Source: Leptasterias polaris (lineage: Eukaryota > Echinodermata > Asteroidea > Forcipulatida > Asteriidae). From it: a DNA stretch of 64,000 bases. Within the stretch, counting starts at the first letter, position 1, and every line of letters begins with the position of its first letter. The stretch spans positions 3,357,501 through 3,421,500 of the forward strand of contig JAZGTN010000044.1 in assembly GCA_037783415.1 (NCBI GenBank), given 5' to 3'. The translations under genes and the position numbers were made by a program. The notes beneath the pieces were generated by a model. It did not search any database. It was not told where the DNA came from and was given only the letters and a program-made list of their open reading frames with translations. Of this stretch, positions 1-53,430 are shown piece after piece.

Positions 1-1767
1 TTCTGTCAGGCCTTCCACATACTTCCCGCTGGTAAGGTAATGAATTAATAATAATAATTAATAATAATAATAATTTATTCAATTTATATTGCGCTCTCTC
101 CAGGACCAGCCTGTTCGAGGGCGCATAACAATAAAAATTCCATTAAGAAAATTAGTCCATCCGAGGATGTTCAAAAAGATGCAAATTACAACAAAAATCC
201 ATAAAAATTACAGTAAATTACAAATATCTTCACACATTGAGTTACGAAACGACTTGACATGCTTGTGCGTCCATAACACTACTGTAACAGCTCATGGGCG
301 ACGCCATGACAGCTAGAGACTAGAGGAACACTCAGTGATGCGGCACAAAATTGACTACTTTCGCTAGCTGCGCGCAGGCATGAAAATTAATGACGTAATG
401 TGATATATTTAGTCATCTGGAACGTTTAGTACACCGGAATGCTCAGTGCGCGACAGCGGGTAGGTGGTGTAGGCCGTTTGAGAAACCACCGCGCGGGCTA
501 CGGCTTGGACATTAAGCCCCTAAAATCACCCGCTTTCTAAGCAACTAACGGAGCCCAAGCAAAAAGCACAAGCCTTGATTTCGATAACGGCACCTTGTGG
601 ACGCGGTCATGGCGGTGGCATGCGGAAATGACACTTGGCATTATTTGTGCATTCAATTGATTTGGTTTAGCTGAACGGGCTATATATACGTGGCAGTGTT
701 ATAGTGTACCATCCAAATACATTTTAAGGGAGATACCCCTGTCGATACATACTGCGCCAAAACTTCCAACATTGCAAATATTTTGCTTTTTCTTGCCTAT
801 AAAATATAAATAAACCCATCATTTCAAGAGTTTACATGTGCTACCGGACGTGACTCATGACGCCTTCATTTAAGAACCAAAAACTAGTACTAAGCTGCAG
901 TTGCAACATTGATAGTGACTGGAATCTTCTCTTGTAGGATTTTGTGAGTATTCAATTTAACATAATATGCCAAGCAGCATGGAATGGACTAACGTGTTGT
1001 TATTAAATGTCCCAAAAAGATTCCGATATTAGGTGACTCTGCAAGTGCAATGTGTTTGAGTTGTAGCTTGCAACAAATGAAAAATAAAATAACTATACAA
1101 AAAATGGTCTGTGAACCTAAAACAGAGAAATAGGCTACGTGTCATCAATTTGAAATGTAAAGTTGATAAACACACTTTTAATCTAGACCCAGTAACTGGG
1201 CGCTGTACTCGTTATTTTAAAACTTTGACATCAGTCTGCAGATGTCGAAAAGGGGGCGGGGGTGTATAGGCCTACATTACCCCAGTTACTGGGTTTACCT
1301 TTAGTCATAGTCCTAGGAATATCAAGACCAAAATTAGGAGTCAACCCCTGATCAATTTGCTGAGGTGTGGTTGAGAAACGAGCAATAAGTTTTGATGGCC
1401 CAAAGAAAAATTAACTTGAAGCTTATTTTTCCAGCCAACGTCTGCTACAGGTTGTGCTCATATCAATTGCTGACATAAATTGATTTTGTGGTTGTTTGTA
1501 TTTTGAACGTAAGCGGGCGAACTAAGTATACACTGTAAAGTTATAGTTTTGGTATCATTGGTGAGTAGTCATCTCTTGATGACAGAAATGCAAATTCTTA
1601 CAAAGGTTTTGTTGATATTATATAGTTGCATCCTTAGCCAACTATTCTCCAACAACATATATTTAAAAATATATGCTTATATGTTTTTGTCGATTTTTTC
1701 TTTCTTTTGTTTTTAATTCCGTTTTTTATTTATTTTTTTATTTTAACTACAGCACCTTTTGTTAGCA
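1..1767. other. Noncoding sequence upstream of the TRIM-like gene
   Basis: I see no gene here. An (AAT)n-rich tract (about 42-76) leads into a motif like the 'tatagcgc' SINE family found elsewhere in the window. A 13-bp near-palindrome CCCAGTAACTGGG (about 1189-1201) is repeated in inverted form (about 1281-1293). Just before the TRIM start, a T-rich tract ending in ACTACAG (to 1752) looks like a splice acceptor, so the TRIM coding exon may be preceded by a noncoding exon that I cannot place. Confidence 0.5.
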
Positions 1768-2811: not shown

Positions 2812-3540
2812 AATAAATTCAAACTCTGGTCCAGACTGTTGTGAGACAGTCCACAAACTGTGATTTGTTGCCTTTAAATCAGGAGGAAGAAAACCTATGT
2901 TAGCCTAAAAACCTCCATCCCCTAAGTGGTAACTCTTAGTCTTATATAAACGCAAAAATACTTTTACAAAATTGCAACTCTGGACAATTCTATTGAGGCA
3001 CATGAATTATGATTTTAATCCACTTTGACTTTTGAACAGGGGAAAAAACCTCAAAAACTTAAATACCTAGCCCAACAAAAAAAGGGCAAACGAAAGGTAC
3101 ATTTAAAAAAATAAACATTAGGCCTAGATTAAAAAAGCCTATACATGAAAAAAGAAAATCGTTTTTAAAACAGAATATCAGTTTCAACCAAAAATTGCCC
3201 AACAAAGTAGCGAAATAAAATAAAATAAAACATTGAAAAGAAATTATAAAATATGGCTTTGTGTTGTGGCTGCTATTGCATTTTTTGTCTATATACCTAT
3301 GGACAGGATGGATTTGGTGGTTCGTTATATCATCAAAAAAAAACGTCGAGGTTAGGCCCTAGTATAACTAAATTAATTTTCTGTTGATTCATTTAATTTC
3401 GAAGCTTCGTTTTAAAGTAAAAACCAAGAAATTTTAGTCAACGTTTCCCTTGGCGAACCACTGTTTGTAAGACACCAGCTTTTAAAATAAGATTAAATGT
3501 CAATGCCATGGCTTCAGCTTTCCTAAATATTTTTTTATTA
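2812..3540. other. AT-rich noncoding stretch
   Basis: No coding signal or clear repeat. This is the 3' flank of the TRIM-like gene. AATAAA-like words (for example near 2812 and 3220) could serve as poly(A) signals, but none is decisive. Confidence 0.4.
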
Positions 3541-3542
3541 TA

Positions 3543-4570
3543 GGTTTTCTCGGTCAATTTCGGCAAATGAGCAGCCGATTTCATTTTCGTGCGTTCGAAT
3601 TAAAGCTATTTTGCCTCTCCAGTTACTGCGTTTCAAATTCAGAATTCAGGCATTCAATTTCGTATTGAGGCATTCAAATTCCTTTTGCACTGTGTTCAAT
3701 TTAGCATTTCATCATTCTTTTTCGTGACGCACAATCATCATTCAATTTAGCAAAGCTGGTTCGACTGGAGATTTTACTGGTTTAATTTTTTTCAATTTCG
3801 TAAAGAGGCAATCAATTTCGCTAAATGAGAATTCAAATAAGTACGACTAAAGAAATACGAATAAACAGATAATCTGTATTAGGCAACTGTTTCGTATCTT
3901 CACTTTAATTCAGGCAAACCTTATTTTCTTTATTTATGGTTCCAGTAGACTTTACATTGGGCCCATGATGTTTTTTCGTCTTTGTTTTCTCCTATATTCT
4001 TTTTTTGGGGGGATCTTTATTGGTTAACTGGCCTAATTTTGTATTGTGTTTGGATGGGGTGTTTCTTTATGTTTTTCCTGGTGTTTTTGTTGTTTATGTT
4101 GTTTCTTCCTCAACCATCAATCTGTTGGCGTCCAGACATCTTGGCGTAGGCCTATATGTTTAGGTATGGTTGTACCACAAGCTGCAACTTCTTGAAATAT
4201 GTGTGTAAAACTGTAGCAAAAGCTCGTCTTCGAAGTACAAAGTGACTCAAGTGCAAATAAGTGAACCGTAGGCCTATATGCCTTATTAACAAAGCGTTTT
4301 TTAGATTGCACAAATTATAAAAATGACTGCCCAAAAATGAATTTGAATGACCAAACACACGCCTCAAAAAGCTCCTGTGAATTTGAATGCTGCTTTGATG
4401 AATCGTTAAATTGAATGATTATTTTGTTACATCGAATGACGCAACAGTACATTTGACTAGTCATAAAACGAAATCGAATGACCCTTTTTAGTAGCATTCG
4501 ATTTCGCGCGAAATAGAATAGCGTGGTGGTTAAATTGGCTGCTCATTTGCCGAAATTGACCGAGAAAACC
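3543..4570. mobile_element. 1,028-bp TIR DNA transposon (non-autonomous), copy 1
   Basis: The ends are perfect 34-bp inverted repeats (3543-3576 and 4537-4570), beginning GGTTTTCTCGGTCAATTTCG. TA dinucleotides flank both sides (3541-3542, 4571-4572), giving TA|GG...CC|TA. No transposase ORF is present. A second copy at 18527-21018 shares both ends and the internal sequence. TA targeting is typical of the IS630/Tc1/mariner group, but without a transposase the superfamily is inference. Confidence 0.9.
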
Positions 4571-5774
4571 TATATATACATCAAATAATAAACTACAAGG
4601 GAAACTGACTGGGTAAATTTTAAATGATTTTGGGTTGAACAAGGAAAAATTGTATACAAGTATACAAATCTTACATCCCGTTATAATGATACACAAGATC
4701 ATAACTTATAATTGTATATTTTGGCGGTACTGTTTTTTATCACAATTCTATACAGTAGCATGAATTTGTGTAGGCCTAACACTGAAGTCAACTGAGAAAA
4801 CGTCGTATCGATACACAACACTGCTAGCGCGCGTGCTCCCGATTGCTGTGTGTGTGTGGCTCTCTGGGCATGTTCAGACAGCTTACTAAAGTTAGACCCG
4901 AACCGGTTTAACTTTACGAGCAGCGGGGGGCGGTCGTAAAAATAAAACTACCTTGCGTTCAGACAGCTCTAAGTTAAACCCGATACGGTTTATCTTCGGT
5001 TTTAAGAGGTCAAACAGCACTGTGACCCAACACAACAACATCCGGTTTATTCACAAAAGCACGCGCATGGCCCTGTCTATATTATTGCCAGCGCTGGCAA
5101 CATTCACATTTTGCAATCAGTTTTATTTTTTTTAACAGGAATTTTAACACCGAGCGGGTGTTAAATACCTCGCATTTTTAGATTGCGTTTTTTCCAATGT
5201 CCTGATGCCATCCGATCGTCCCAAAGTGTCGCTATTTTCGTTTCGTCCCCACGTCCATTCTTTTTTTCCCACAGGATATCGGCACTTCTTCTTTGTGGAT
5301 CGATGAACCAGAACCAGAATGTATGTACTGACTGCATGTATACAGATCACGTGCGTGAAGGTATTTCTGCCAGGCAGCCAATAACGAATTTTCCTATTGG
5401 TTGATGTGTAGGACATGGATATTATTGGCCAATAGGAAAATTCGTTATGAGCTAAATGTTTTAATAGGGGGGATTGGCAATCTGGGAGATTTTAGACGTG
5501 CACGTGACGTGTTGGTATATTGATGTCTGGAGTTTGACGCATTTTTTGTGATCTGTAAAATTCTGGATAGGCTACTCCAATTTACCGTCCGGTCACTACG
5601 TTTCTTAATTATACCACATCACACCAGTGATTACAACTTTGGGAGGCTAACCGACAGACATATACAGGTGTAAAGAACGGGATATTATAGCTTTGATAAT
5701 TTCATATCGTATCGTTACCACAGTGTATTATTTACTAATGGCCTACATTTATAATTCTAAGAACTGGTACTTAT
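4571..5774. other. Noncoding stretch with repeat fragments
   Basis: No gene is seen. Positions 4869-5020 contain two arms of a GTTCAGACAGC... repeat, related to the element at 10471-10675. A perfect 20-bp inverted repeat lies at 5381-5448, and an 11-bp hairpin around 5141-5166. Confidence 0.5.
5381..5448. repeat. 20-bp perfect inverted repeat with CCAAT motifs
   Basis: Arms 5381-5400 and 5429-5448 are exact reverse complements with a 28-bp spacer. Each arm ends at a CCAAT/ATTGG motif facing inward. It could be a foldback element or a paired CCAAT-box promoter element; nothing nearby decides. Confidence 0.7.
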
Positions 5775-6054: not shown

Positions 6055-6770
6055 TAGACTTGATTCAAGTCCCTTTCTCGTGCGAGGTTCCTAACGTAAC
6101 GCGCCAGCATGCAGCCACAGAATACCAGTGCGCCCTCACCGACAAAATGTAGTTATTTATGCGGTGGCGATCAAGGGACTTGACGGGGTCGTTTCCTACT
6201 CCACGCATTTGAATAGAAAAATCTCCCCAAATGGGGAGATGTACAAATCCAATGGGAGCGTGGAAGTGCCGCCCCTTTCATTTAGTATTCATCTTGCTCT
6301 GTGACGTTTGTATCATGTATCTATGGACGTAAGCATCTCCAGAATGGCTGCCGGGCGGAAGAGGGGGTGGGTGTTTTAAGTCGCTAAATTGCATTTGTCA
6401 ATAATTCAAAGTATGCATTTGCAAACAATACCAATCCCAATGTATACGTAATATTAACTTGAATTCAAATAAATTTGTAGTTTTTATATATATTCATGCA
6501 TTTCGATCCTCGACAAAGTACTTTACCACCCCCGCAAATAAAAAAAATCAACGAGTCTTCTTTTTGAACGCGTTTGATTGGACAACAAGTAATGCGCCAT
6601 AACTTTGCATATTCGTAAGTGAATAAATTTACATATCAGGCAACTGCGGGTTCGTCAAGTCCCTGTCCCGCGCGCGGAACAGGTTGGGGAATGCAGAGCG
6701 CAAAATAATAGTTTTCTGACGATGAGGCAAGGAAGGGCCTTGCACGGGATTGGGACTTGAGTCAAGTCTA
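6055..6770. mobile_element. 716-bp miniature element with 9-bp TSD, copy 1
   Basis: The termini are TAGACTTGATTCAAG... and ...CTTGAGTCAAGTCTA, bracketed by the 9-bp direct repeat CTCTCATTC (6046-6054 and 6771-6779). It has no coding capacity. A second copy lies inverted at 53440-54204 with its own 9-bp duplication. Duplications of 9 bp suggest a Mutator-like element, but this rests on length alone. The insertion lies inside the DIRS recombinase frame. Confidence 0.92.
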
Positions 6771-6779
6771 CTCTCATTC

Positions 6780-7020
6780 TGGAATATGATATCGGTCTGT
6801 TCTCTGCTCTAAGATTGAAACCAGAATTGAGTTTATTGACAGAGCCTAATATGAATTCCTCCGAATTTGGGGAAAACTTACACAAACTTATGTATCTTTC
6901 CAGAATCTTAACTGGGCACGTGGTTCCACTTGTTCTACTTATAACCGTCCACGCCCCCTCTCTATGCTTGCCTAGTTGTTATCATACAAGTATTATCAAG
7001 GCTCTTCAGCCTGCCTGTTA
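6780..7020 (-). pseudogene. DIRS tyrosine recombinase, N-proximal part
   Basis: On the minus strand the translation includes a CPVKILERYI segment and, later, NRPISYSRMR running to the edge of the inserted element at 6770. Both match the strand/helix region before the catalytic HxxR box in DIRS recombinases. Upstream, around 6960-7140, short repeated words ('ggctct.cagcctgcctg') interrupt the frame. Confidence 0.7.
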
Positions 7021-7186
7021 GCATGTTAGATATGTACAAGTATTCTCAAGGCTCTACAGCCTGCCTGATAGACATGTGAGTATTCCGAGTCTCTACAGCC
7101 TTAAGGCTCTGTCACCTGCATGTTACCTGCAAGTATAGCTGCATTTAATTAATGAACGATAGACGTAATGCCAGCATTTTGAACTT

Positions 7187-7375
7187 TATACAATTGCTGC
7201 TCGATATGGGGCAGAGGGAGGCCCCCCTCTATTGTGTCTTCATTGTGTTCTGGGAATCTCAGGAATTCTTTTGAGAATTTTAGGGGGGGTGCTTCTGTAT
7301 ACAAGAGGGAAGAGTGTGTTAGGGTTAGGGTTAGTTTGGGGGGGCCTCCCTCTGCCCCATATCGGGCATGGTATA
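7187..7375. mobile_element. 189-bp foldback MITE with AACTT target duplication
   Basis: Inverted arms about 30 bp long (CGATATGGGGCAGAGGGAGG... in each) form the element. TATAC/GTATA ends are flanked by the 5-bp direct repeat AACTT (7182-7186 and 7376-7380). It interrupts the DIRS pol/recombinase region. With one AACTT copy removed, the DIRS frame on either side lines up again, which confirms insertion after the DIRS element. Its interior contains TTAGGG repeats (7319-7334). Confidence 0.85.
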
Positions 7376-8315
7376 AACTTTGGGAATGACTCTTTAAAGA
7401 GTGGTCTCCCACTCTTACCGCACACAAATGACTCATATGATGCTGGGAATTCTCTATACTCCTTTACTTGAGAAATAAAGGAACCATCACATGAATTGAC
7501 TAATAATGGCCAGAATATTGCCGACGGCCAATTTGGAGTAATCAAGGTGCCTATTGCTTTGCTGGATCTTAATTGCAAAATTGTTTTAGCAATGAGAGAA
7601 ACTGGTGGAGCTAGCCAATTGTTCTCACCTGACCAATTTTCTGTAAATGCATCTATGCTTTCGGATTTGGGGTTCCAGAATCTGGAATTGAAGCGATTGG
7701 TCTTCCTGTTTTGGAAATTAGCAAATCTATCTATGGAGTGAGGACCCCACAGTGAGTCTAATTGGCTGAAGATTGAACCTGAAATTTCCCAATCATCATA
7801 GTCTACGATGCGACTTTATAATAAATCGGCTTGTTCGTTCTGGGAACGTGGAATCCACTCAGTTTTAAGGCCAATTCCATATCTTACGCATATTGAGTAA
7901 ATTGAACATGCAATGCTCTGAAGATCTGGTTTGCCACTGCGCATTTTCAATAATCCGTGCAACGTTTTGACTGTCTGTGAACCATTTTACATTATTTCCG
8001 GTCAGAATAGGCACGAAACTTTCTAACACAATATGAACAGCCTCCAGTTCTTTTCATGGCAATCCCAAGCTCCATGTGCAATGCTTTATCTACACCCACT
8101 ACGTAACCTGCTCCACCAACATTGCTTGCATCTGAATACACCACCTTATGGTACATGACATCATTTTTCATTGGGATAGGTTCCAAGTTGGAAAATATTT
8201 GAACTCCAAAAATACAACTCTTGTTTGGATACTGATGATAACGTGATGCCGATTGTATGTCACAAAGCATGGCTCTAGTCATCAGACGTGCAATATTGCC
8301 CAGCGCGGGTGTCAT
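7376..8315 (-). pseudogene. DIRS RNase H and linker region
   Basis: On the minus strand, the segment at about 8150-8020 reads VVYSDASNVGGAGYVV, the first acidic block of an RNase H. A KWFTDSQNVARII segment (about 7945) is the later one. Further on, VDYDDW (about 7800) and TLITPNWPSAIFWPLL (about 7540) are blocks typical of the DIRS pol C-terminus. Stop codons break the frame at several points, so the gene is inactive. Confidence 0.75.
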
Positions 8316-8332
8316 GGCTATTATTTGGCCAA

Positions 8333-9491
8333 CTACACTGGCAATATACGCTTAACCTGTACTTTATTGCATTTTGCGAAAAGAACAGAGTTTGTAACGA
8401 TGCGTTCTATTTTGGACTGCAACGGACAGATAAAGCCCTTCCCTGTATCTAGTTGAAAACCTAGCCATTGGCAAGAAAGTGACGGTTCCCAGTGTGATTT
8501 TTGCACATTAACAATGAACCCTGCCTCTTCCAAATCTTTGCGCACTGCGTCTGATTGGTACTTTGCCTCTACAAGGGATGGGGCCATGCCCAAGCCGTCA
8601 TCTAGATACACTATTATTTCTTTGCCCTCTTTTCTCCACTTATTGACTAATAATAATATACGCATTATTTTTGTGAAAATATACGGTGCTGAAGTTAAGC
8701 CAAAAGGTAACGCCAAGAATTTGTAGAAGTTGTTGCACCAGGCAAAGCCAAGGTATTGGGTGTGGCCGGGGAGTATGTCGATGTGATGATACCCACTTTT
8801 AAGGTCAAATGAAAACATATGTTTGCCTTGTCTAAGATAGTTACTAGCAGTTTTAAGGCCTTCAAATTTGACAGATTGTTTCCATACATGGTAATTGACT
8901 TTACGCAAATCTAAAATAAGACGCTTTTTGCCATTTGATTGCACTGAAACTGAAAGGGGGCTCACATACCTTTGGTTGAACAGTGCATTGTATAATACTG
9001 CCTACCCTGAGAAGTTGGGAAATTGCATCTGCAACGAAAGCGGAATGTTTAAAAGCTGACCGGTTATTATTTGCCACCATTGATTGTGGGAGAGTATGAA
9101 ACGGAATTGCATAACCCAATACTATTGTATCTATAATAAACTGGTTACTACTGCATTTTTCTTGCCAAAATTTGACATGTTTCTTTAGTCTTCCTTCCAA
9201 ACGCATACCACTATCACATTGTTCCCAATCGAACCTATCTGATGGTAATGTGTGCCCAACTAACATGTACTTATCTTGGAATGTGTCTACTTTATGTGTT
9301 CCGGGCGTCTCTGGCAGACGTGATGAAGCTTGAGGTTGCTGGTGCGTTGTGCCGGCCTGGCTGTGAGAAGGGGCATTCCTTTCTCCAGTGTCCACTGGAC
9401 CCGCATGAAAAGCATACACCTGGTCTTGTGCGTGCTTGGAATTTGGTGTTGTCGGCGATGCTTGGTGTTGGAGTTTGGGGAGTGGTACCAT
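8333..9491 (-). pseudogene. DIRS reverse transcriptase, frameshifted
   Basis: Two overlapping minus-strand frames (9491-8901 and 8965-8333) make one RT. The first holds the N-terminal GRLKKHVKFWQE and SAFVADAISQLLRVGSI blocks. The second holds KKRLILDLRKVN, FSFDLKSGYHHI, the PFGLTSAPYIFTKIM block and the active site VYLDDG (about 8600). The join near 8960 needs a frameshift, so the copy is damaged. YLDD in place of the common YxDD is normal for DIRS elements. Confidence 0.88.
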
Positions 9492-9996
9492 TGTAGAGAC
9501 GAAACCGACTGCTTCCCCTAGTTGTTTTGGCTCTTTTCATCTTCCTGACTGCTCTTTCCTCTGCTCCGTTTATTCTTTTCTCGTCCTCGGAGTCCGAGGC
9601 CAAGTCATTCGTTTGGTATTCACGAACTGTCTGCCATCCTCCTTCGCTGGAATCTGCCAAACGGATCAGCTTTTGTCTGGTTGACATTTTCTGTATGGCT
9701 TTATCAATATGCGAGCTGACTGCTGCAATATCTCCTGATTTGCATGCATCTGACGCCTTGACCATTATTTCTAGGACATCACGATTGAAATCGAACTGTT
9801 TTTGATTACCCTCTCTTTTCCATTTTGTCGATGTTGAAGTCTTTATTTTTTCGTTGATGGCTTGAATCGACTCTCTCTGATTATTTAGCAACTCTGCTCG
9901 CAATGTGGAACATGAATCTTTAAATGTCCGTTGGATTTCGCTGGTCGTAGCCTGGAATGCATGTAAAATGCGATCTGTGGATTCGTTGGCATCCAT
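9292..9996 (-). CDS. DIRS gag-like protein with zinc knuckle
   Basis: An ORF of 234 codons from ATG 9996-9994. Near the C-terminus, CFSCGSSGHWRKEC is a CX2CX4HX4C zinc knuckle of the type that binds retroelement RNA. The central part is rich in charged residues (EDEKRINGAEERAVRKMKR). It overlaps the start of pol in another frame (9491-9292), as is usual for DIRS gag/pol. This frame is still open, unlike pol. It is a retroelement gene, not a host gene. Confidence 0.75.
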   Translation of the reverse strand: MDANESTDRILHAFQATTSEIQRTFKDSCSTLRAELLNNQRESIQAINEKIKTSTSTKWKREGNQKQFDFNRDVLEIMVKASDACKSGDIAAVSSHIDKAIQKMSTRQKLIRLADSSEGGWQTVREYQTNDLASDSEDEKRINGAEERAVRKMKRAKTTRGSSRFRLYNGTTPQTPTPSIADNTKFQARTRPGVCFSCGSSGHWRKECPFSQPGRHNAPATSSFITSARDARNT

Positions 9997-10099
9997 AGTA
10001 AAGGTAAGTATCAATTAGTGCGCTTAACAAAATGTGTGTGTGCGTGTGTGTGTGTGTAGCCTGTCGGTACGCAGATGGCTCTTAAGGCCACGCCTTGCC

Positions 10100-12300: not shown

Positions 12301-12685
12301 GGAATCTTGTGATACCTCAAGTATTAATTAACAAAGCAGCTTCCAAGAAAATTCCCCATGGTTGACATTTATTGATGTCTCGTAATTGTGCAAAACGTCT
12401 AAATGCATGAGCGACTATTAGTGAAACAAACTTTTTTAGACCTAAAGGTTATGAATGTACAGTATTTACACAGTATTTCAGGCCATTCAAAGTCACATAT
12501 CGAAATTGATAAGATAAGATTAAATTTCAATGCCATTATAAATTGGCATTTAAATGTTTTTGCACAGTGAAAGGCAAACTATACCTTAATTGAATTTCCT
12601 ATAGGACATTTTCATGCGAAACAGGCTGCACAAACTTTACAGTTAATTGTTTACTTTGACAAAAATACTTTTTCTTGGTATACAG

Positions 12686-13369
12686 GATCTTCAAGAAAAA
12701 TAAATAGGAAATATTTTGCAGATGCTTTGAGTTCAGCAGTTTTACCTCCAGAGTCTTCTGGTGACTACCACAAGGATGATAATGGTGATAACTTCCACTT
12801 TGATCACATCGTTGAGTTGCCGGAATGCATAGAGGCAAGAAATGGTGAGGAAGGCGAGGAGGTGAGATTCAGTGATCGAGCCGATCTGTTCTACCACAAT
12901 AACAAGGAGCCCAGTCAATTGAAAGAGCGGGATATTGGGGAAATCAAGGTCCTTTACAATCCAGACAACAAAAAGTATCGCATCGTCATGCGTAGAGAGC
13001 AAGTCTTGAAGGTCTGGGCTAATCACTTTGTTACACACGAACTGAAGTTGCTGCAATATGCTGGATCAACAACGTCTAATTGGGTCTGGATGACAATGGA
13101 TGCATCTGAGGTCCAAACGGAAAAGGTGCTCGTGAGATTCAGAACTAAAGAGTTGGCCCAGCAGTTCAAGGAGGTAGTTGAAGCAGCCCAGGAGGACATG
13201 AAGACAGAAGGAGTAGAAGATGCAGTGAAGATAAAAGATGAGGAAAAGAAAGAGACAGAAGAAGCTGAGAAAGAAAAGAAAGGTGTTCAAGGAGATGTTG
13301 GGGAAGATGATGGTGAAGCTGATGAGGAAGATGATGAGGATGCTGAGGAAGATGATGGAGAGGAATACG

Positions 13370-13400
<31 letters not shown>

Positions 13401-13731
13401 CTACGATGAAGAGGATGGAGGTGGAAACAGTAATGAACAAGGTGAAGATAAACAAGATGACACAACGCAAGGTGATAAACAGGGTGAAGACAAGCAAGAT
13501 GCCACAGCACAAGGTGATGAACAAGGTGAAGATAAGCAAGATGCCACAGCACAAGGTGATGAACAAGGTGAAGATAAGCAAGATGCCACAACACAAGGTG
13601 ATGAACAAGGTGAAGATAAGCAAGATGCCACAACGAAAGGTGATGAACAAGGTGAAGATAAGCAAGATGCCACAGCACAAGGTGATGAAAAAGATGAAGA
13701 TAAGCAAGATGCCACAGCACAAGGTGATTAA
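12686..13731 (+). CDS. Ran-binding domain exon with acidic repeat tail (RANBP2-like)
   Basis: An internal or terminal exon starts after the acceptor TACAG (12681-12685) and runs open to TAA at 13731. It encodes a full RanBD1-type domain. Landmarks are HFDHIVELPE, GEEGEEVRFSDRADLF, ERDIGEIKVLYN, RIVMRREQVLKVWANH, WVWMTMDASE and VRFRTKELAQQFKEV. RanBDs bind Ran-GTP; in RANBP2/Nup358 they act at the cytoplasmic face of the nuclear pore. The domain is followed by a Lys/Glu-rich linker, an Asp/Glu tract (about 13309-13425) and seven 14-residue repeats of type QGEDKQDATAQGDE. No intron interrupts the RanBD, whereas the RanBD at 15445-16939 has two. No start codon belongs to this exon, and its upstream partner is unknown. 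It may be expressed, or it may be a non-transcribed duplicate with an open frame. Confidence 0.7.
13438..13728 (+). repeat. 42-bp coding minisatellite, seven units
   Basis: Units are 42 bp and in frame, each encoding a variant of QGEDKQDATAQGDE. The last unit is one codon short and runs directly into the stop. The third to sixth units are nearly identical, suggesting recent slippage. A (GAT)n tract encoding poly-Asp lies just upstream (about 13371-13400). Confidence 0.9.
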
Positions 13732-14227
13732 AAAAAGATTACAAAAAGATTAAATGTCAAAACCATTAAGTGGCCTCACCTTTCCCAAATAGAAAACCTT
13801 ATTATTATTATTTATTTATTCTTAACTTGGGTTACCTCAAGTACTGACAAAGCAGCTTCCAAGGAAATTCCCCATGGTTTGCATTTACTAATGCCTCGTA
13901 TTTGTGCAAAATTGTTGTAACTTGGTTTTGTGGTAACGTCTAAATGCATGAGCGTACTTTGTGCAAAAACTTTTGTTAGTCTTAAGGTTATGGATGTACA
14001 GTATTTACACAGTATTTCAAGCCACTCAAAGTCACATATCGAAATTGATCAGATAAGATTAAATATCAACGCCATTATAAATTGGCATTTAAATGTTTTT
14101 GCACAGTGAAAAGGCAAACTATATCTTCATTGAATTTCCCAGGACATTTTCATGCGAAACAGGCTGCACAAACTTTACAGTTGTTTACTTTGACAAAAAT
14201 ACTTTTTATTTGTATATTTGTGTACAG

Positions 14228-14454
14228 GATCTTCAAGTAAAATAAAAAATTCTTCCTATAGGAAGAATTTTCTGTTGAAGAGGGTTACAGCTAAATCTCG
14301 CTTGCGATCAAAGTATCTCCGGAAGCCTGCTACAGTTTTTGCATTTACCTTTGGTCAGACAACAACGCTGGACAAGAAACCTTTTGCAGATGAATTGACT
14401 TCAGCAGTTTTACCTACTGCAGAGTCTTCTGGTGACTACCACAAGGATAATAAT
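14228..14454 (+). pseudogene. Truncated RANBP2-like exon (second tandem module)
   Basis: It starts after acceptor TGTACAG in the same phase as the exon at 12686 and keeps residues missing there, including an FG motif in FAFTFGQTTTLDKKPF. It then matches the first module through SSGDYHKDNNG (about 14425-14454) and breaks off. The Ran-binding domain is absent: the sequence jumps straight into the intronic block of the third module. Confidence 0.8.
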
Positions 14455-14706
14455 GGTTTGCATTTACTAATGTCTCGTATTTGTGCAAAATTGTTGTAAC
14501 TTGGTTTAGTGGTAAAGTCTAAATACATGAGAGACGTACTTTTAGTGCAAAAACTTGTTTAGTTATTGATGTACAGTAGGCCTATTTACACAGTATTTCA
14601 AGCCATTCAAAGTCACATATCGAAATTGATAAGATAGGACTAAATGTCAATGCCATTATAGTGGCATTTAGAGCTAAACTGTTTTTTGCACAGGGAAAGG
14701 AAACAA

Positions 14707-14880
14707 ATATCTCCAGAAGCCTGCTTCAGTTTCTGCAACATCAACATCATCCAAACAATACCTCCCCTCTCTGAGAAGCTCCAAAGTTCACCTTTAGTCC
14801 CTTTACCAAACCTAGTCGGTTTTCATTTAGCTTTGGTTAGACAACAACGCATGACAAGAAACGTTTTGGAGCTGCAACAG
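14707..14880 (+). pseudogene. Degenerate exon remnant (third tandem module)
   Basis: The words 'tatctccagaagcctgc' and 'ttagacaacaacgc.tgacaagaaac' align with the FG-containing part of the exon at 14228. Stop codons and shifts are present, so no protein is likely. The aligned part is short. Confidence 0.6.
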
Positions 14881-15444: not shown

Positions 15445-17785
15445 AAGCGAAAGGATTTGTGTTTGCCCGGGCTGGTGCTCAAGTTTTGGGAGGTGCAGGT
15501 GGAGGTTATGATACTGCTGGGGGAGACAAGGAACACGACCCCCACTTTGATCCCATTGTTCCCCTACTTGAGGTACAACAGATATATTCTTTTCTCTCTG
15601 TCTAAACCTCTACAAGCAGCTTTGGTGACATATTGATCTTGGGATTGAGGCCAACTATAGGGTTTGGAAAATGTTATGTTTATAGTAGATTGTCTTGGCG
15701 AGTGGTCTAGCATGGCTTCAAGTTATGGTGACTTTTGGAGTGTGGGTTTGAGTAATCATGGTCTCTTAAAGGGTATTTGTAACATTGATAAGAGTAAAAA
15801 TATTAATGTTCACATATTAATGCACAATTTTACATGGAATAAATGGTCATGGTGGGAAACTCCTTTTCAAATATTGTTGCTTGAAATGCTACAGCTTTTG
15901 AGAAATGAGTATTTAAAACAATTAGGCCTAGTCTTGATCTTGCGAGTCAAAAACTCAATGTTTGAAAATATTGAAAACATTTAAGGTTTTTTCCCAACTT
16001 TTTTTCTTGTGATTCCAATGACCGATTATCTTAAACTTTCAAAGGTTTGTTATTTCATGTATATGTTGGGTCACATCAAGTTAGTGTGGATACTGGTCTT
16101 TGACAATTACCAATATTACACATATGCTTTAAGTAAGATAGCAAAGTTATCACATCTTTTATATGCACCCTAGTCTGTCAACATACTCACTTTTACTTGC
16201 TTCGTGTCATTCAGCTAGTTGATACAAAGACTGGTGAGGAAGATGAAGAGATCATGTACAAGCAGCGAGCCCGTCTGTACTGCTTTGCTAAAGAGCTGAA
16301 TGTGTGGAAGGAACGAGGCATAGGAGAGGTCAAATTGATGCGACATAAAGACAGTGGAGAACTAAGACTGCTGATGAGACGGGAACAGGTTAGACGGGGT
16401 TAACCCTCCTACTCTTGGCAACATATGATCTTTGAGGCTTTTTTAGTTGGTCAAAGGAGTGCAGTTTCTAGATCTCCCCCTTGTCCATGCTTGATTATTG
16501 CGCAACTGAAGATTTGGGTCTTTATTTTGTAACTTTATTGGGTTTACTGTTTTGAAAGAGTAATATTTTCTACCTGTAGGTTCTGAAGCTGTGCGCCAAT
16601 CATCGCATTACAGATGACATCAAGCTTGAATCCCTGAAGTCCTCGGATCGTACCTGGGTGTGGCATGTCCTGGATTACTCCGAGGATGAACCCTGCCATG
16701 AAAAGTTTGCCATCAGGTTCAAGACGCATGAGCTCGCCGTTGAGTTCAAACGAAGGTTTGAAGAGCTTCAGGCTGAGAGGAAGAAAGAAATAGAGGTAGA
16801 GGTAGAAGACAAGGCTGTTGTACCGGAAGGGCCAAGGAGAGATCAGCCGGCGAAAGACGATGACGGAGACAAAAAAGACGGAAATGAGAAAAACAGAAAA
16901 GATGACGTGGCTGCTGAAGCTACTGTTGCAGATACAGAAGTTAGTATATGGTCAGCATTTTCACAAAGTAGGGAAATTGGTTTGTTTTCTGATTGAAAAG
17001 ATTTTAAAATATATGTTTTCTTTCCTCTCTAGCCAACCGTAGAGGAATTGATTGCCAAGTATAAACCCAAGCCAGGCTCATGGCAATGCGATGATTGCTG
17101 GCTGAGCAACGAGGAAACCGCTTTGACCTGCATCTCATGCACAGCATCGAAACCTGGTGCTGTAACTCCCTCGGCGACCCAGCAGTTGAGCACATTGTCT
17201 AAACTTGCCGGAGCATCACGACAAAATCAGTCTGTGACCAGTTTAGGGAGTGAGTTTACAGTTGGCGCTGGTGGGGGTTTCTCATTTGCTGGCATGCGGA
17301 CTTCAGACAATGCAAGTAAACCCTCTGGATTGGGCTCCTTTGGGCAACCAAGCACTTTCTCAAAAACACCCTCAGATTCTGGACCATTTGCTGGAGGACC
17401 CATTCAGTTTGGATTGTCATCACCTGATACCAAATTAATGGGTCCTAAAGAGAAACCATTTACAACCATTACTAGCAAAATCACCTTCGAAAGTGGATTC
17501 CTGAACTATTATCTTGGTGCGGCAGGTGATCAGTCTCAACAACCAGTTGTGACATCAACTGGTGGTTTTACACTCGGTGCAACGAGCCTGACACCCCCAA
17601 AGAGTGACCCCATTACAGCTGCCTCTTCCAGGAGCCAGACCCAACCGCTGACCCCAGTTAAACCAGACCAACCTAAAGAGGTCCTTCCAGCCAAGGAGGG
17701 AACAAGACCTGTGTTTGAAGCTGGTAACCTTACATCACAAACTCCCAAGAGCAGTGCACCACCAGCATTTTCCCAAGCCCAGTGA
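15445..17785 (+). CDS. RANBP2: RANBP2-like: Ran-binding domain plus RanBP2 zinc finger (partial)
   Basis: Four exons join in frame: 15445-15572, 16215-16388, 16580-16939 and 17033-17785 (470 residues). The first three encode a RanBD: DPHFDPIVPLLE, TGEEDEEIMYKQRARLYCF, WKERGIGEVKLM, LLMRREQVLKLCANH, RTWVWHVLDYSED, IRFKTHELAVEFKRRFEEL. A Lys/Asp/Glu-rich linker follows. The last exon carries a RanBP2-type zinc finger, WQCDDCWLSNEETALTCISC, then Ser/Thr/Pro-rich sequence with FG-like motifs (FSFAG, FGQPS, FGLSS). In RANBP2/Nup358 these parts bind Ran, COPI/exportin and transport receptors. The usual TPR region, SUMO-ligase region and cyclophilin domain are not in the window. The frame stops at 17785, but homologous sequence continues in a shifted frame to about 17888, so the C-terminus looks damaged. 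The first exon needs an upstream partner (phase 1). Intron 1 holds a TTAA element. Confidence 0.8.
15776..16132. mobile_element. TTAA-flanked MITE, copy in a RANBP2-like intron
   Basis: TTAA at 15776-15779 and 16129-16132 bounds a diverged copy of the element at 45203-45555. Shared words include 'gagaaatgagta', 'ctcaatgtttgaaaa', 'tactggtctttgacaattacca'. TTAA targeting suggests piggyBac-type mobilisation. It contains one TAGGCCTA (15923-15930). Confidence 0.75.
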
Positions 17786-18526
17786 GGAAAACCCTGTGGG
17801 CTTCTCTTTTGCTGAAATGACCAAAACAAAGGGATCTGTTTTCACCTTTCGCATGGGTGTCGGCAAAACCCCAAAAGAAGCTCCTTAGAAATCACCAGTC
17901 AAGCCTAAATCTCCTGGAATAGTCAAGTCACCCCAGGACTGAATAAAAGTGGTGATGGTGACTACTACAAGGATGATGGTGGTGATCACATTCACTTTGA
18001 TCCCATTGTTGAGTTGCCGGAATGCATCCAGGCAAGAACTGGTGAAGAAGGTGAGGAGGTGAGATTTAGTCATCGAGCCAAGCTGTTCCGCTATACAACA
18101 AGGAGTCCAGTCAATGGAAAGAGCGGGGTATAAGGGACATAAAGGTCCTGTACAACCCAGACAACAAGTATCGCATTGTCATGCGTAGAGAGCAAGTCTT
18201 GAAGGTCTGCGCCAATCACTTTGTTACTCCAGAACTGAAGTTGCATCCAAATGCTGGATCAACCAAGTCTTGGGTCTGGATGGCAATGGATGCATCTGAG
18301 GATGAGGTCCAAATGGAACAGTTGGCCGTGAGATTCAGAACTGAAGAGTTGGCCCAGCAGTTCAAGGAGGCAGTTGAAGCAGCCAGGATGACATGAAGAC
18401 AGAAGGAGTAGGAGATGCAGTGAAGATAAAAGATGAGGCCGAGATATAGGACGAAAAAGAGACAGAAGAAGCTGAGAAAGAAAAGAAAGTTGAAACGAGC
18501 CTGACACCCCCAAAAGAGTTATCATA
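17786..18526 (+). pseudogene. Broken RANBP2-like continuation with frameshifted Ran-binding domain
   Basis: After the stop at 17785 a shifted frame reads ENPVGFSFAEMTKTKG and on to a stop at 17888. From about 17990, HFDPIVELPECIQARTGEEG starts another RanBD that closely matches the one at 12.8 kb. It is shifted at about 18095 and 18130; a further open piece (18181-18396) restores MRREQVLKVCANH and WVWMAMDASEDE. Another shift occurs at about 18387. Like the 12.8-kb copy it has no introns. It ends at the TIR element inserted at 18527. Confidence 0.85.
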
Positions 18527-19070
18527 GGTTTTCTCGGTCAATTTCGGCAAATGAGCAGCCGATTTTATTTTCGTGCGTTCGAATTAAAGCTATTTTGACT
18601 CTGCAGTTGTTACTGCGTTTCAAATTCAGAATTCGGGCATTCAATTTCGTGTTGAGGCATTCAAATTCCTTTTGCACCGTGTTTTCCTTTAGCATATAGT
18701 CATTCTTTTTCGTGACGCACAATCATCATTCAGTTTAGCAAAGCTGTTTCGACTGGATATTTTACTGGTTTAATTTTTTTCAATTTCGTAAAGAGGCAAT
18801 CAATTTCTCTAAATGAGAATTTAAATAAGTACGACTAATAAAATACGAATAAACAGATAATCTGTAGTAGGCAACTGTTTCTTATCTTCACTTTAAATCA
18901 GGCCAACCTTTTCTTTATTGTTCCAGTAGACTTTACATGGGGCCCATGATGTTTGTTCTTCTTTGTTTATGTTTTCTCCTATATTCTTTTCTGGGGGGAT
19001 CTTTATTGGTTAACTGGCCTAATTTTGTATTGTGTTTGAATTGGGTGATTCTTTATGTTTTTCCTGTTTT

Positions 19071-20594
19071 TAACTGTTCCGACATAGGTCGGAACAGCTA
19101 TTGTTTTCGTCAAAAGTTTTATTATTATTCTTTGTTTCTACCTAAATTCCCATAGCAATTGCACACGTTTTTTTTAAAAGCCTAATATCCTAAAGTGTAC
19201 ATACGAAAGAGTTAAATTATATATCAAATTGAAGCTTAGTACATGAACTTAAGTCTAAATGTTAAAAATGTTAAAATTCTTAATTAATTAGCCAATTAAC
19301 AGCGAGATGAATATTTAATTAGCCAACCTTATAAGCACCATATCTCAACAAGTATACCCCCGATCGTCAAATTTTTTTCAGTTATAGACTCCTTGGGCAT
19401 TGGAGATTAGCCTTGGGTAACCGTGGCCCCATGTTGACCTTTACCTCCAGGTCAACCGGAAGTGGGACCATAATTATCTCAATAACTACACAACTGATTT
19501 TGAAACTTTTTTCAGTTATAGACTCCTTGGGCACTGGAGATTAGCCTTGGGTAACCGTGACCCCATGTTGACCTTTTCTTCCGGGTCAACCGGAAGTGAG
19601 ACCATACCTCAAGAACTACACAACCAATTCTCAAACTTTTTTCAGTTATAGACTCCTTGGGCATAGGAGATTAGCCTTGGGTAACCGTGACCCCATGTTG
19701 ACCTTTACTTCCGGGTCAACCGGAAGTGAGACCATATCTCAGGAACTTTTTCAGTTATAGACTCCTTGGGCATTGGAAATTAGCCTTGGGTAACCATGAC
19801 CTCATGTTGACCTTTACTTCCAGGTCAACCGGAAGTGGGACCATATCTCAAGAACTACACAACCAATTTTCAAACTTTTTTCAGTTATAGACTCCTTGGG
19901 CATTGGAGATTGGCCTTGGGTTACAGTGACCCCATATTGACCTTTACTTCCGGGTCAACCGGAAGTGAGACCATTTCTCAAGAACTACACAACCGATTTT
20001 CAAACTTTTTTTCAGTTATAGACTCCTTGGGCATTGGAGATTAGCCTTGGGTAACCGTGACCCCATGTTGACCTTTACTTCCGGGTCAACCGGAAGTGAG
20101 ACCATATCTCAGGAACTTTTTCAGTTATAGACTTCTTGGGCATTGGAGATTAGCCTTGGGTAACCGTGACCCCATGTTGACCTTTTCCTATGGGTCAACC
20201 GGAAGTGGGACCATATCTCAAGAACTACACACCCGATTTTCAATTTCTTTTCAGTTATAAACCCTTGGAGCATTAAATGTTAGACAAGGGTTACCATGAC
20301 CCCATGTTGACATTTATTTCTGGTTTAGAAGCTCTTTTCGAGCACATGGTTAAGTTAGAATGAAGGTGAAAGTTAGGATTAGTTTCAGGGTCAGGTTTAA
20401 AGATAGTTTGAGAGTCAGTATGAGAATGAAGATTTAGGTTTTTAGGCACACTTAAAGTCAAAATAAAGGCCTGTCAAAGATCAAGGGTCTTCTATCTCAA
20501 AGTCAGGTTAACTTTAGAGGTTTGGAGCGTTTCATCAAAGTAAAAAACAACGGAACAGCTCTGTGTTTGTCCACAAACACATAATGTCTAGTTT
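19071..20594 (+). mobile_element. Helentron/Helitron-like non-autonomous element with tandem repeats
   Basis: This sequence is absent from copy 1 of the host element, so its limits are known to a few bases. At the left is the palindrome GTTCCGAC-ATAG-GTCGGAAC (about 19075-19094). The middle has eight tandem repeats. The right end carries hairpin GTGTTTGT-CC-ACAAACAC (about 20564-20581), followed seven bases later by CTAG and T. A hairpin just before a CTRR end and no target duplication are Helitron hallmarks. A central minisatellite is typical of Helentron-associated (DINE/pearl-like) elements. There is no Rep/helicase, so it is non-autonomous. Confidence 0.7.
19378..20327 (+). repeat. Eight ~130-bp tandem repeats with three-unit higher order
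   Basis: Unit starts ('tcagttatag') are at 19378, 19512, 19642, 19751, 19881, 20012, 20121 and 20251; the last unit is partial. Spacings are 134, 130, 109, 130, 131, 109 and 130, so every third unit is short by about 21 bp. Most units carry ACTTCCGG-GTCAA-CCGGAAGT or a close variant, an 8-bp inverted repeat. Confidence 0.92.
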
Positions 20595-21039
20595 TGTTGT
20601 TTATGTTGTTTCTTCCTCAACCATCAATCTGTTGGCGTGCCAGACATCTTAGCGTATATGTTTAGGTATGGTTGTACCACAATTATAGCTGCAACTTGAC
20701 TCAAGTGCAAATAAGTGAACCGGGTATGCCTTATTAACAAAGCGTTGTTTAGATTGCACAAATTACAGAAATGACTGCCCAAAAATGAATTTGAATGACT
20801 AAACACACGCCTCAAAAAGCTCCTGCGAATTTGAATGATGCTTTGATGAATCGTTAAATTGAATGATTATTTTTTTAAATCGAATGACTCAACAGTACAT
20901 TTGACTAGTCATAAAACAAAATCGAATGACCTTTTTTAGTAGCATTCGATTTCGCGCGAAATAGAATAGCGTGGTGGTTAAATTGGCTGCTCATTTGCCG
21001 AAATTGACCGAGAAAACCTATATTACATTAAATTTATTT

Positions 21040-23560: not shown

Positions 23561-24326
23561 GCCATAGTGGCCAGAAGAGCACTCTTAAACTATGTGCTGT
23601 AGTTGCAATTGTTGAACCTTCCCTTCCAGGGATACAATTTTTTTAATACAACACTGCTGTTCCCTTTCCAATGTTAACTCCAGTTGGATATAAATTACAT
23701 TATAGAGGATTTGTTCTGGTTTACTTTAAATTTAGTAGCTAGTCTATGGTATGGCCTTGTTTAGGTCTATTCAAATTGGCCTGCCAATTATATAGTATTA
23801 AAAGATGGTTCTCCATCAAAGTACCCAAACTGCTTGACAATGTTCTTTCTATAGTCTGTGTTTCTTTAAGGTACATAATGAAGAAAAGAGAGGGGACTGT
23901 TAAACAAAGGAACTGAAAAGGAAAAAAGGACGCTGTACTCACTTTTTCATACGCAATAGTCTATCGAAGTAATAAGTTTGAGGGATAAAGGAAAGTCATC
24001 ACATTGATAGCAATAATTCATTTTTATTGCACACACGATCATATGCATTATGCGCCCTCCTATTTATTTTGTACTGTTTAGAAGCTCTGTTTATCCAGGG
24101 TTGGTTTTTGTTGGTATAGGCTTGGTCTGCCAACTTGCTCTTTTGGGATTGGCTAGTCTCCCTAGTCCTTTCTAATGTTTTTTTTGAGGGGCAAGTATAA
24201 AGTTTCGTCCAATCAAAACTGGTCTTAGCGTCGGAAGATTTAGGGTACGGGCATCAAAAATGTCAATTGAAGTTTCAATGTATTTTTCTTGTGTTGGTCA
24301 GAGTATAAATTGAAGTAGGCCTATGG

Positions 24327-24708: not shown

Positions 24709-24885
24709 GGTAGGGAAGGGTGGGGGTGGTCCATGGTGCCGAAACGAGGCAACTTGTCACTTTTACATTGTATGGCTCGTTCTATCGTGTCCTGGCCATG
24801 CAGTCTAAGGGACATGTTGCCTTCGGATTGGGCGTTATTGGCTATAAAATAAATGCGATTGGACACATTTTTTAAAAGTCAAATC

Positions 24886-31239: not shown

Positions 31240-31279
31240 GCGTGTTATTGAACTGTATTGATATTGTTGGTGGGCGGAG

Positions 31280-31934
31280 TGTAAGATTTCCTGCATCTTA
31301 CTTTTCTTTGTTTGTTTCTTTGATATTAATCTTGTATATCGCCCTCTATTGTTGAGAGATTACCTTCTTAGATTGATTAGTCTGGTCCCAACTGTTTACT
31401 ATTTTACATAGCATTTTACACTAAGTAGACCAGATACTAGACTTTGCCACATGTTCATTGTTTTAACCATTCATTTGATACAAGTTATACTACAAGTGTT
31501 TAAGATTCCTGTGATTACTGCCTTTAAATTGGACGCAAAACAGTGTAAGTTAATTTTGTTTTCTTTTATGTTAAAGCTGGATTGTCATTTTGTTAAGTAT
31601 AATCTGAGAGAAGAGCAGAAGAGATAAATAAAGGACTAATTTAGATTGTTGTTTGATATGCATTCACAAAAGCACTTTCACTGGAGATTTTACTGCTAGA
31701 CTTTTCATTAAAGGGATTTACTTAAAGGAGCAGTTTTGATTAAAGTTTTCTCTAAAGTTTTCTCTAAAGTTTGATTAAAGTTTCATTAAGATTTGATTAA
31801 GGTTTATATTTAGACATTGTATTTTTCATACATGTAGATTTCGAACCCGACCACTGATGTAATGTCTTCCGAGAATTGCAAATAAAGGAGTTTGGAAACG
31901 TTTGAAGTTTAAGAGACGCACACAGAATCTTACA
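31280..31934 (+). repeat. 3' LTR of the BEL/Pao element
   Basis: Same length as the 5' LTR with one visible substitution. A short purine-rich run (GGGCGGAG, 31272-31279) directly before it is a plausible polypurine tract. Confidence 0.95.
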
Positions 31935-32019
31935 AAATCTAAAATCCACACTGGAATTTACACATTCCGCCATTTGCCCTATGGTAGAACCAAACTTTCG
32001 ACACCACAAAATGGAGGAC

Positions 32020-32835: not shown

Positions 32836-33450
32836 ATTTCCGTTTTGACATGATGTCAGCCTTGGAAAGAATTGTTTTTCCTAGTTTTGCTGAATAAAAA
32901 AATAATAATAATGTGCACATTTTGTAACATGGCCACACAACAATTTTTCTTGAAACATGATCATTTTGGTGTTTGGTAATTCTATGAAGGATACCATTTA
33001 GGCCTAGTACCAGTATAATGTATCAATGAATATAGACTTGTGGACAAGCCGTTAAATGTTTGTCCTGGTGATAGTGTATAAGTGGCTCTCACACGACAAT
33101 ATTCTCGCAAAACTGCTGCTTCCGTGAGACTTCTTCAGTAATGAGGAACCAGCAGTCTGCAAGCGAGAGCAGTATAGTCTCGCGAGAGCAGTATAGTCTA
33201 GCGAGAGCCGTTACCGTGACCAACATTTAATGACGTCTCAACAAGTCTACAATGAATACCGGCTTACAGATGGAATCAGCAAACTGCTTCCCCATAATGG
33301 TGTCTGTTCGTGTAGCCCAAACTGGTGTGCAGTCGCTGAACTTTATGTTAACAAGCTGAAAAGTAAAGACAATAATTGCAATGGTATAAGTTTTCATCAG
33401 TTTATTAAACTGGTATAAGCTCTATTACTGGTAGTGGTATAGGCCCACTG

Positions 33451-34620: not shown

Positions 34621-34833
34621 TAGGTGTTCACAAACGCCAAGCTTATGAAATCGGAGCGAACAGGATGGACCAATGAGCAGTCTTCTGTTTTAGTCTGAAC
34701 ATCTGACAACATATTTAATTTTCATGGTCATAAAGTACGTTAAACTAAAATTATAGACGAAACAAAATCTTGCCAACGTAAAACTCCATATGGTTGGGAC
34801 CACAATGGTCCCGGAAGTTCGCTTACTTCGAGA
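34482..34833 (+). repeat. Direct duplication of ~122 bp
   Basis: Copies at about 34482-34603 and 34711-34829 share 'aaagtacgttaaactaaaat' through 'ccggaagttcgcttac', with two or three differences. The second copy looks like a duplicated right end of the foldback element. Confidence 0.85.
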
Positions 34834-39189: not shown

Positions 39190-50685
<11,496 letters not shown>

Positions 50686-50699
50686 TTTGATAGAGGTTT

Positions 50700-53430
50700 C
50701 TGTGAAGAGAAAAGTTGATCTGAATTACTACTAACATCACTAAACACAAACATACAATTCCCTACCCCTCCACAAACATAAATCCAAACCCTCACCACTG
50801 ACTTTAGCCCCATCAAGTACCCAATTCGCAGCCGAGGGAATGAGAATTACAGCTTGCCCTCTGGCATTTGAAACATTGTTAAATTATTAACAAACCCATA
50901 ACTGAGGCACTTTTGTTCTACTTCTTCACTTCCATGAAATTCATTTCCAATGTTTTTCCTATGCAAAATGGCAAAGACCTTACCTTTCTGATTAAGTTAA
51001 ATCAACATGGACCAGGACTTTTTTTCCCACAAATACACTCAGCAGAGTTGTGTGTTTGTGTGTATTGAGTGTGTACGAGTTGGTGGGCGTACCACTTGGT
51101 ATGATTATGAGTAGCCCAGGTTGGACTCATCTGTTGCATACATTGCGACGGAGTCCAGGGTATAAAGGTCCTGTACCATTGCGAACAAATTATAAAAATT
51201 TATTTTCTATTTTTACCCGATGGGGGAAGCTGAAGCTTTGTTAACATTATTTCTTGTGTCCGTAAACCCCATGACTGATGGGTTCAGAATGGTTAATTTT
51301 ATCCTTGGGTGACATCATTTTTGAAAATAAAATGGAAATTGACGCCTCTGTTGAACTTTCTGTACCGACTCGCGACTCCACAATATTCAATCATAGCAAG
51401 TCCGTCACACTTATTTTAATTTGTCATAATTTTCACCACTAGAGGATGCTATCATCCATAGAACCAGCTGATAGAACTGCTCGGACAATAGCGCCCTCTT
51501 GCTGAACAAATTTTGTTAAAAGAATAAGTTTAAAGTAGCGTTTTGCTGGATCTTAACTTCTGTTTAAATTTAAAGTACTAACACTTTTTATTCAAAAACT
51601 TGAGAAGAATGTAAAAAAAAGGTCTGCTCACGAACTGTAAGTTCAGAATTTCGTGTGACAAGAACAGCCCATAGTTCGTGTCTCAGTTCTATTGTGCGTT
51701 TCGACCGAAATTGTTTTGTTTGAGTGGGCAGACTAAAGTAAAAAAAATTGCATGCGCGGAAATTACAAAAATAGTCTTTGAATGTTTTCAAAAAATTGCG
51801 CCAACCAATTCCATGTTTCTTTATCCTGCCTCCACTTTGTAAGAGGTTATTTGGTTTTTTTAATAGATGTTAGACCTTATTTCCCTTTTTTGTTATATTC
51901 TTTGTGAGGAATTGGCAGCTAAAACACTAAATTTTGACCTTAAAAAAGACAATTCAAGCGCACATTTCATCGCGCAAATAGAAATCTCGCGCAATTAAGT
52001 CTGATTGAAGCGATAGAGCAAGGACTATTGAAGGAACTAAAATTATTAAATGGAGTGTACGTGGTGCATGCAGCAATTTTCCCATGCAGCGTAGTCACGA
52101 CTGACCACCACCACACCCGAAGAAAAAGGCTGCTTTTTCACAGTTTGTAATAGGCCTACATAGAATTAGATCAATTCAAAGAGCCTGTGCCTCTATAGTC
52201 AAACCTTCTGGACAGGTAAGGATATAATTTGACCCATGTGAATGTGGCAGGATACAGAATTTTCGGGGAAAAAATCAAAATAGCGAACAAGATTTTAGAA
52301 TTGGGAATTATCAATTAATTTATTTTTCATGAATTCAAACTTCTTGCAAATGCAGTATTCAAATCAACCACCTCCGCTATTTTTATTTCTAAAACTAATG
52401 GAAATGAAAACCTTCTCCAGATTTAAACTGAAAACGTAAACAGCAACAATATAATCATACATAGTATGTAGAGTGTCGGAATTGGGCGTAACACAGTGTG
52501 CAAAAACCCATTCACGAGCTGAACCCCTGTTTTCTTTGTGTGAAACTGAAGAAACTCAAAGAAGGTCGTCGTGTGTCGTGAAGTTATTTTCACACATTCT
52601 ACAAATTTTAACATGTTTAATACGCAACAAACCTTACAAAAACACTAAAGTAATTTAAATATATCGAAGGTAGAATTGTTATTAGTAATAATTATTGACA
52701 TTTCCGTCATCCAACATTTTGCTTACTTACACAAAAATAGATTTATCAACAGTACTTACTTGCTTCACAATCTAAAAATCAAGCGTTCTCAAACACCATG
52801 CGTTTGTTTTATAAAATGCCAAATGCAGTGTGTGTGTGGTGGCCGGATGCTTTTTTTGGACACATGCAGCACACGGCGAATAGACGACGGACACCCGCGC
52901 GACGGCCACCAGCTGCAAGCTACGCGTGCGCAGATTGGGAGAAAGAGAAATACGTGTGACGTAACGGCACGCGTAAAGGAGGTGTTCATATTTAGATGAA
53001 ACGCCAAAGAGGCAAGTAATCTGAACAACACATCGATCGGTCTTTTACATCGATCAATCGTTCCTTTCCATCGATCGATTAGTTCTCTCAACTGATAGAT
53101 CGATGAATAAATAGCGGTTAAAATAGACCGATCGATTGAAAACTGGAGCATCGGTAAAAAAACGATCGGATGAAAAATAGCAAATGAAAAGACTGATGCG
53201 CCTACATCGATGTGTATAAGCCTCACACATATTCCGCCGCCGTGTTTGTACGTAGACCGCCGTGTGTGTGTGTAGACTGACATTCCATTCCGTTGGCAAC
53301 GTTTGCGCAAGTGGAACGCACCCCAGGTGAAGTTGGCGTTCATTTAGCTCTTGTCAGGGGCTCATCCGGATGAGCACACCCGAGTCACCCAAGCAAGCTA
53401 ATCGAATGCAACCTTTTTTGGCGGCTTCCC
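50700..53430. other. RBMX upstream region
   Basis: Contains the acceptor of the first coding exon and an unknown RBMX 5' exon and promoter. A CpG-richer block lies at about 52840-52980. Repeated ATCGATCG words occur at 53030-53160. No other gene is seen. Confidence 0.4.

Follow-up and report, generated by a model that had tools for sequence, protein, structure and literature searches.

What has placed ten copies of the eight-letter palindrome TAGGCCTA in a single 64-kb stretch of DNA (the window, which is the whole of the sequence analysed here)? In the preliminary description, these octamers were proposed to be footprints of a transposon. This proposal is retained in the following form: TAGGCCTA is considered to be the footprint of a TA-targeting cut-and-paste transposon with ends starting with GG, which inserted and was then excised, with a probability of about 0.65. 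In favour of it are the excess of the octamer, its presence as an insertion at TA in three repeat families and the occurrence in the window of an element of the form TA-GG...CC-TA (hyphens mark the border between target duplication and element). The broader statement that TAGGCCTA is the scar of some TA-targeting transposon is slightly more probable still, and an excision scar of a TA-targeting element is rated well above any single cut geometry.

Frequency of the octamer and of control palindromes

The ten positions listed for TAGGCCTA in the preliminary description are all exact, and the excess over chance claimed there is confirmed within the window. The expected number is 0.37 when the sequence is shuffled with preservation of the dinucleotides (with a maximum of 3 in 100 shuffles), 0.41-0.53 for Markov models of order 1-3 and 1.13 for order 4, and in 200 windows of 64 kb simulated at order 3 there are never more than 3 octamers, so that none reaches ten. 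Among the 8-mers that occur ten times or more (530 with strands merged), TAGGCCTA ranks first by the ratio of observed to expected numbers (10 versus 0.46, about 20-fold). The maximal-order estimate is about 6, which says little, because 10 of the 11 TAGGCCT 7-mers sit inside the octamer, such that this model mostly restates the data. The one-mismatch neighbours of TAGGCCTA sum to 16 versus about 14 expected, and nearly all of the excess therefore concerns the intact octamer; among these neighbours, one is conspicuous, namely TAGGACTA counted with its complement (4 versus 0.9). The printed flanks of the octamers have nothing visibly in common beyond the octamer itself, except for the pair at 4147 and 4269, which are 122 bp apart in one copy of the element described below (copy A), and where the octamer is both times preceded by CG and followed by TATG, so that the pair may not represent independent events.

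A literature search for the TAGGCCTA motif, also in combination with transposon, gave no paper on it by title among the matches listed, this search being incomplete and not implying absence from print. The motif together with 'starfish' gave no match, and among the matches listed for footprints, palindromes and short insertions nothing was on point by title.

As controls, seven other TAxx ends were scanned for TA-flanked inverted repeats, and five of these gave pairs with at least 15 of 20 matching bases. For four of the five, the predicted scar shows no clear excess (TAGATCTA, 1 versus 0.67; TATGCATA, 1 versus 1.32; TACCGGTA, 1 versus 0.29; TACTAGTA, 0 versus 0.55). The fifth, TACATGTA, comes second among the palindromes in order of enrichment, with 17 occurrences versus 1.6 (1.57) expected, at 25435, 31829, 37029, 37623, 38964, 45801, 46872-46897, 47441-47460, 48929, 55554, 57638 and 63416. 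Seven of the 17 are in two (ACATGT)n runs, which are also the inverted pair behind this control, and two are in a pair of LTRs; after masking of the runs of at least two 6-bp units and of one LTR, 8 remain versus 1.5 expected. This palindrome would be the matching scar for TA elements with CA...TG ends, and it could be either another scar or the result of simple-sequence bias. An insertion of CATG at TA is found in none of the 30 indel rows of the window self-alignments. As TACATGTA is enriched without such evidence of insertion from sister copies, the excess of an octamer alone is no proof of scars.

The TA dinucleotide in sister copies of repeats

The self-alignments of the window, at an identity of at least 69%, list 30 rows of indels of 4-14 bp. 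Eleven of these rows are indels of 6 or 7 bp, corresponding to eight distinct events, and in three of the eight the extra sequence is TAGGCC or TTAGGCC. For four of the ten TAGGCCTA sites, a sister copy that aligns across the site is present in the window. When the 309 surrounding bases were compared with the window by BLAST, no convincing copy was found across the other six octamers (1267..1274, 3119..3126, 4771..4778, 24316..24323, 32999..33006 and 52151..52158).

At three of the four comparable sites, located in three unrelated repeat families, the sister copies read TA, in five of five copies. The octamer at 4147..4154 is within element copy A, and copy B has TA at 20655-20656. The octamer at 14577..14584 is in a block that is present three times near a stretch coding for a RanBP1 domain, and its sisters have TA at 12463-12464 and 14002-14003. 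The octamer at 15923..15930 is in a short interspersed repeat, which by our reading is MITE-like, and its sisters have TA at 45357-45358 and 62833-62834. At the fourth site, 4269..4276, also within copy A, copy B has GG at 20723-20724 and not TA, which is ambiguous and speaks neither for nor against the scar model. The alternation of TA and TAGGCCTA in three unrelated families, as put forward in the preliminary description, is thereby seen at three of the four comparable sites among the ten, and it is the pattern of a TA excision footprint, in which the sister reads TA where the scar reads TA-x-TA. Since the sisters have TA at these sites, the origin of the octamer is an insertion of 6 bp, namely GGCC and a second TA.

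The direction of this change can be judged at 14577, where TA is present in the relative with 88.6% identity and also in the more distant one with 84.5%, which makes the gain of GGCC and TA the simpler direction. At 4147, there are two copies only, and at 15923 the copy with the octamer is the outlier (72% and 70%, versus 90%), so that the comparisons at these two sites set no polarity.

These comparisons also bear on two other explanations. In one of them, TAGGCCTA would have a function, for instance as the binding site of a protein, and would be kept or spread by selection, with which its perfect palindromic form and strong over-representation are compatible; the difference between the repeat copies is, however, an exact 6-bp insertion at TA and does not consist of point changes, and a functional motif is considered very improbable. 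The pattern could also be an artefact of sequencing or assembly or a local peculiarity of the window, as the evidence comes from a single 64-kb window, but the precise addition of GGCC and a second TA at TA, at scattered sites and in unrelated repeat families, is not expected of an artefact, and this explanation is given equally little weight.

The GG-ended element as candidate source

An inverted-repeat scan of 132 TAGG and 161 CCTA positions, pairing those within 6 kb that have at least 14 of 20 matching terminal bases, gives only two pairs, at 3541-4572 and 18525-21020, both matching at 20 of 20 bases and both with the ends GGTTTTCTCGGTCAATTTCG. Copy A (3541..4572) has the form TA-GGTTTTCTCGGTCAATTTCGG...-TA, with 1028 bp between the TA dinucleotides, and lacks any ORF of 150 aa. 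Copy B (18525..21020) has the same ends, with 2492 bp between the TA dinucleotides, and it contains an inserted block that includes a tandem array (19337-20323) with units of about 130 and about 109 bp. The ends read TA-GGTTTTC...GAAAACC-TA in both copies, and the 1-kb inverted-repeat element with TA-GG...CC-TA ends is thus as given in the preliminary description. The reading AT-AGG...CCT-AT fits both copies equally well, the flanks then being ATTAT-AGG...CCT-ATATA and ATCAT-AGG...CCT-ATATT.

A possible assignment to the Tc1/mariner type would agree with the TA on both sides of the element and with the 20 of 20 terminal inverted-repeat bases in both copies; against it, the AT duplication fits equally well, and no transposase was found by a Pfam scan of 15 ORF stretches of the window. 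The stretches scanned comprise the BEL/Pao ORF, together with 14 of the 73 listed stretches of at least 88 aa (many of which overlap; the list omits 24800-32000). An autonomous copy of the GGTTTTC element was not found, and the family is probably non-autonomous. An exact search for the element end in viral_contigs and genome_contigs gave 0 matches, as did a search for a repeat pattern in the same two sets. In the window, no clean empty site was found for the element at 3541-4572; the repeat at 36278-36325, considered as an empty site of copy A, resembles the right flank, but the junction is not alignable base for base.

The pathway that we infer for the octamers, with its excision, geometry of cutting, end joining and source element, would be as follows. 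The transposon would insert at TA, duplicating it, and would later leave, its transposase cleaving at the TA border on one strand and slightly inside the element on the opposite strand, as in Tc1/mariner-type elements. After such a staggered cut, each flank would retain a few terminal bases of the element as a 3' overhang, which would be GG if the ends start with GG and the stagger is 2 nt. If both overhangs are retained and copied during end joining, the product would be TA-GG-CC-TA.

The GGTTTTC family is a candidate source of the scars, with a chance only just short of even. Its GG and CC ends are those of the scar, as proposed in the preliminary description, but of the ends of the 3541-4572 family only the outermost two bases match, and the octamers outnumber the element copies in the window by 10 to 2, which counts against this source. 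The 2-nt stagger also meets a difficulty. The GG/GG overhangs would be unpaired, so that partial scars should be common, and the one-sided scars TAGGTA/TACCTA are not in excess but below expectation (14 versus 21.8), which counts against this stagger; TAGGCTA/TAGCCTA are weakly above expectation (8 versus 3.9). In addition, the footprints of studied elements vary, so that a uniform scar is unusual. The preliminary description considered neither the one-sided scars that are expected from a 2-nt GG overhang nor a self-complementary GGCC overhang.

As the one-sided scars are not in excess and the scar is uniform, a different source has also to be considered, namely a TA-targeting element with GGCC ends and a 4-nt stagger, whose self-complementary 3' overhangs would anneal and be ligated, generating only TAGGCCTA. 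The near-expected number of one-mismatch neighbours (16 versus about 14) agrees with such a source, as does the size of the footprint, its 4 bp being inside the range of 2-4 bp that is quoted for Tc1/mariner elements in the cited passage of PMC7913693, where 0-3 bp is found for ZB. In the window, however, the scan gives no TA-GGCC...GGCC-TA pair with at least 14 of 20 matching bases (there are six TAGGCC and eight GGCCTA outside the octamers), and the sole GG-ended family reads GGTT. A GGCC-ended source is therefore rated as rather unlikely.

A 4-nt stagger has also been considered for the GGTTTTC family itself. The sequence 5'-GGTT-3' can pair with itself, with a G.T wobble at each of the four positions; if all of these are repaired to G.C, GGCC would result, which by inference only would account for both the uniformity and the source. 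The partly repaired products TAGGTTTA/TAAACCTA (2 versus 2.4), TAAGCCTA with its complement (2 versus 1.4) and TAGACCTA with its complement (2 versus 1.1) show no clear excess, however, and although the all-A.T product TAAATTTA is raised (14 versus 4.1), several other A/T-rich palindromes are raised too. Repair of wobble-paired overhangs is less likely again than a GGCC-ended source and is regarded as a doubtful explanation.

For the preferred reading, in which the octamers are footprints of a TA-targeting transposon with GG-starting ends, the density of scars is about 10 per 64 kb, versus two resident element copies in the window. That the genome as a whole is dotted with such scars, as suggested in the preliminary description, is an extrapolation from ten sites in one 64-kb window. 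In that case, a single transposon family would have left in the genome a fossil record of its past excisions that is dense, uniform and countable, the self-complementary GGCC junction making for a nearly constant repair product; this suggestion is tentative and stands somewhat below even odds. If it is true, excision events, which are normally invisible, can be counted, dated and mapped genome-wide, and, without experiments, the rate of excision and the outcome of its repair can be followed through evolutionary time. If TAGGCCTA is a scar throughout the genome, past excisions and resident copies are directly comparable. It would also account for a conspicuous k-mer that could otherwise be mistaken for a binding motif.

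Related transposon systems and other features of the window

On excision, C. elegans Tc1 leaves behind 2 nt from one of its ends or from both, and one-sided scars occur. For this element, the scar directly analogous to TAGGCCTA would be TACATGTA; the ends of Tc1 are CA/TG, in contrast to the GG/CC ends considered here, and one-sided scars of the kind that occur with Tc1, here TAGGTA/TACCTA, are not in excess in the window.

According to the cited passages on Tc1/mariner elements, cleavage of the second strand takes place a few nucleotides within the transposon, and the footprint corresponds to the 3' overhangs after end joining (PMC8151067, PMC3878927). The cited part of PMC9976928 gives footprints of 0-4 bp for Passer, and that of PMC3878927 gives C(A/T)GTA for Sleeping Beauty and Frog Prince. 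Like the footprints of the latter two, as far as described there, the octamer involves a TA target, a duplicated TA and a few terminal bases between the two TA dinucleotides. Unlike these, the GGCC core of TAGGCCTA is palindromic and uniform and would correspond to the retention of both 2-nt overhangs.

The ISL2EU group of the PHIS superfamily, in the description cited from PMC4482050, has terminal inverted repeats that usually begin with GG, animal hosts and a 2-bp A/T duplication, the target being A-AT-T, with AT duplicated. By comparison with this description, the element shares the GG start in both copies if TA is the duplication, and AT-AGG...CCT-AT fits as well; it differs in that A-AT-T is not seen at the element flanks when these are read with an AT duplication, and the scars are on TA, with no A/T rule evident in their flanks.

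The coding content of the window is that of an animal, with RanBP1 and RanBP zinc-finger stretches, the ORF of a RING/B-box protein and the BEL/Pao element described below. A protein search with the RING/B-box ORF gives five relatives, the best having 63% identity and one, with 23%, being from the starfish Patiria miniata. A repeat in the window presumably resembles starfish repeats, which would likewise suggest an echinoderm. The RanBP1-domain coding sequence is part of duplicated blocks at 12306-14715 and 17956-18492, in which a 42-bp tandem repeat (13346-13776) encodes an acidic repeat.

Other element-like features are also present. A BEL/Pao LTR element with an open frame of 1863 aa extends over 24886-31934. 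Between its LTRs, at 24886-25540 and 31280-31934, the identity is 99.8% over 655 bp, which points to a recent insertion. The regions 6055-10014 and 53436-54204 are by our reading likely to be the remains of a DIRS-type retroelement, with ORFs for a reverse transcriptase and a zinc-knuckle protein and a sub-threshold Dam-like match (24.3 bits, versus a cut-off of 28.1); 6055-6774 recurs in inverted orientation at 53436-54204. A further TA-flanked inverted-repeat stretch, at 33451-34620, has the terminal sequence TAGACTGTGCAAGTCTCGCGCGTA... and matches at 20 of 20 terminal bases. It includes a 117-bp repeat (34483-34599), which recurs just outside, at 34710-34826, with 98% identity.
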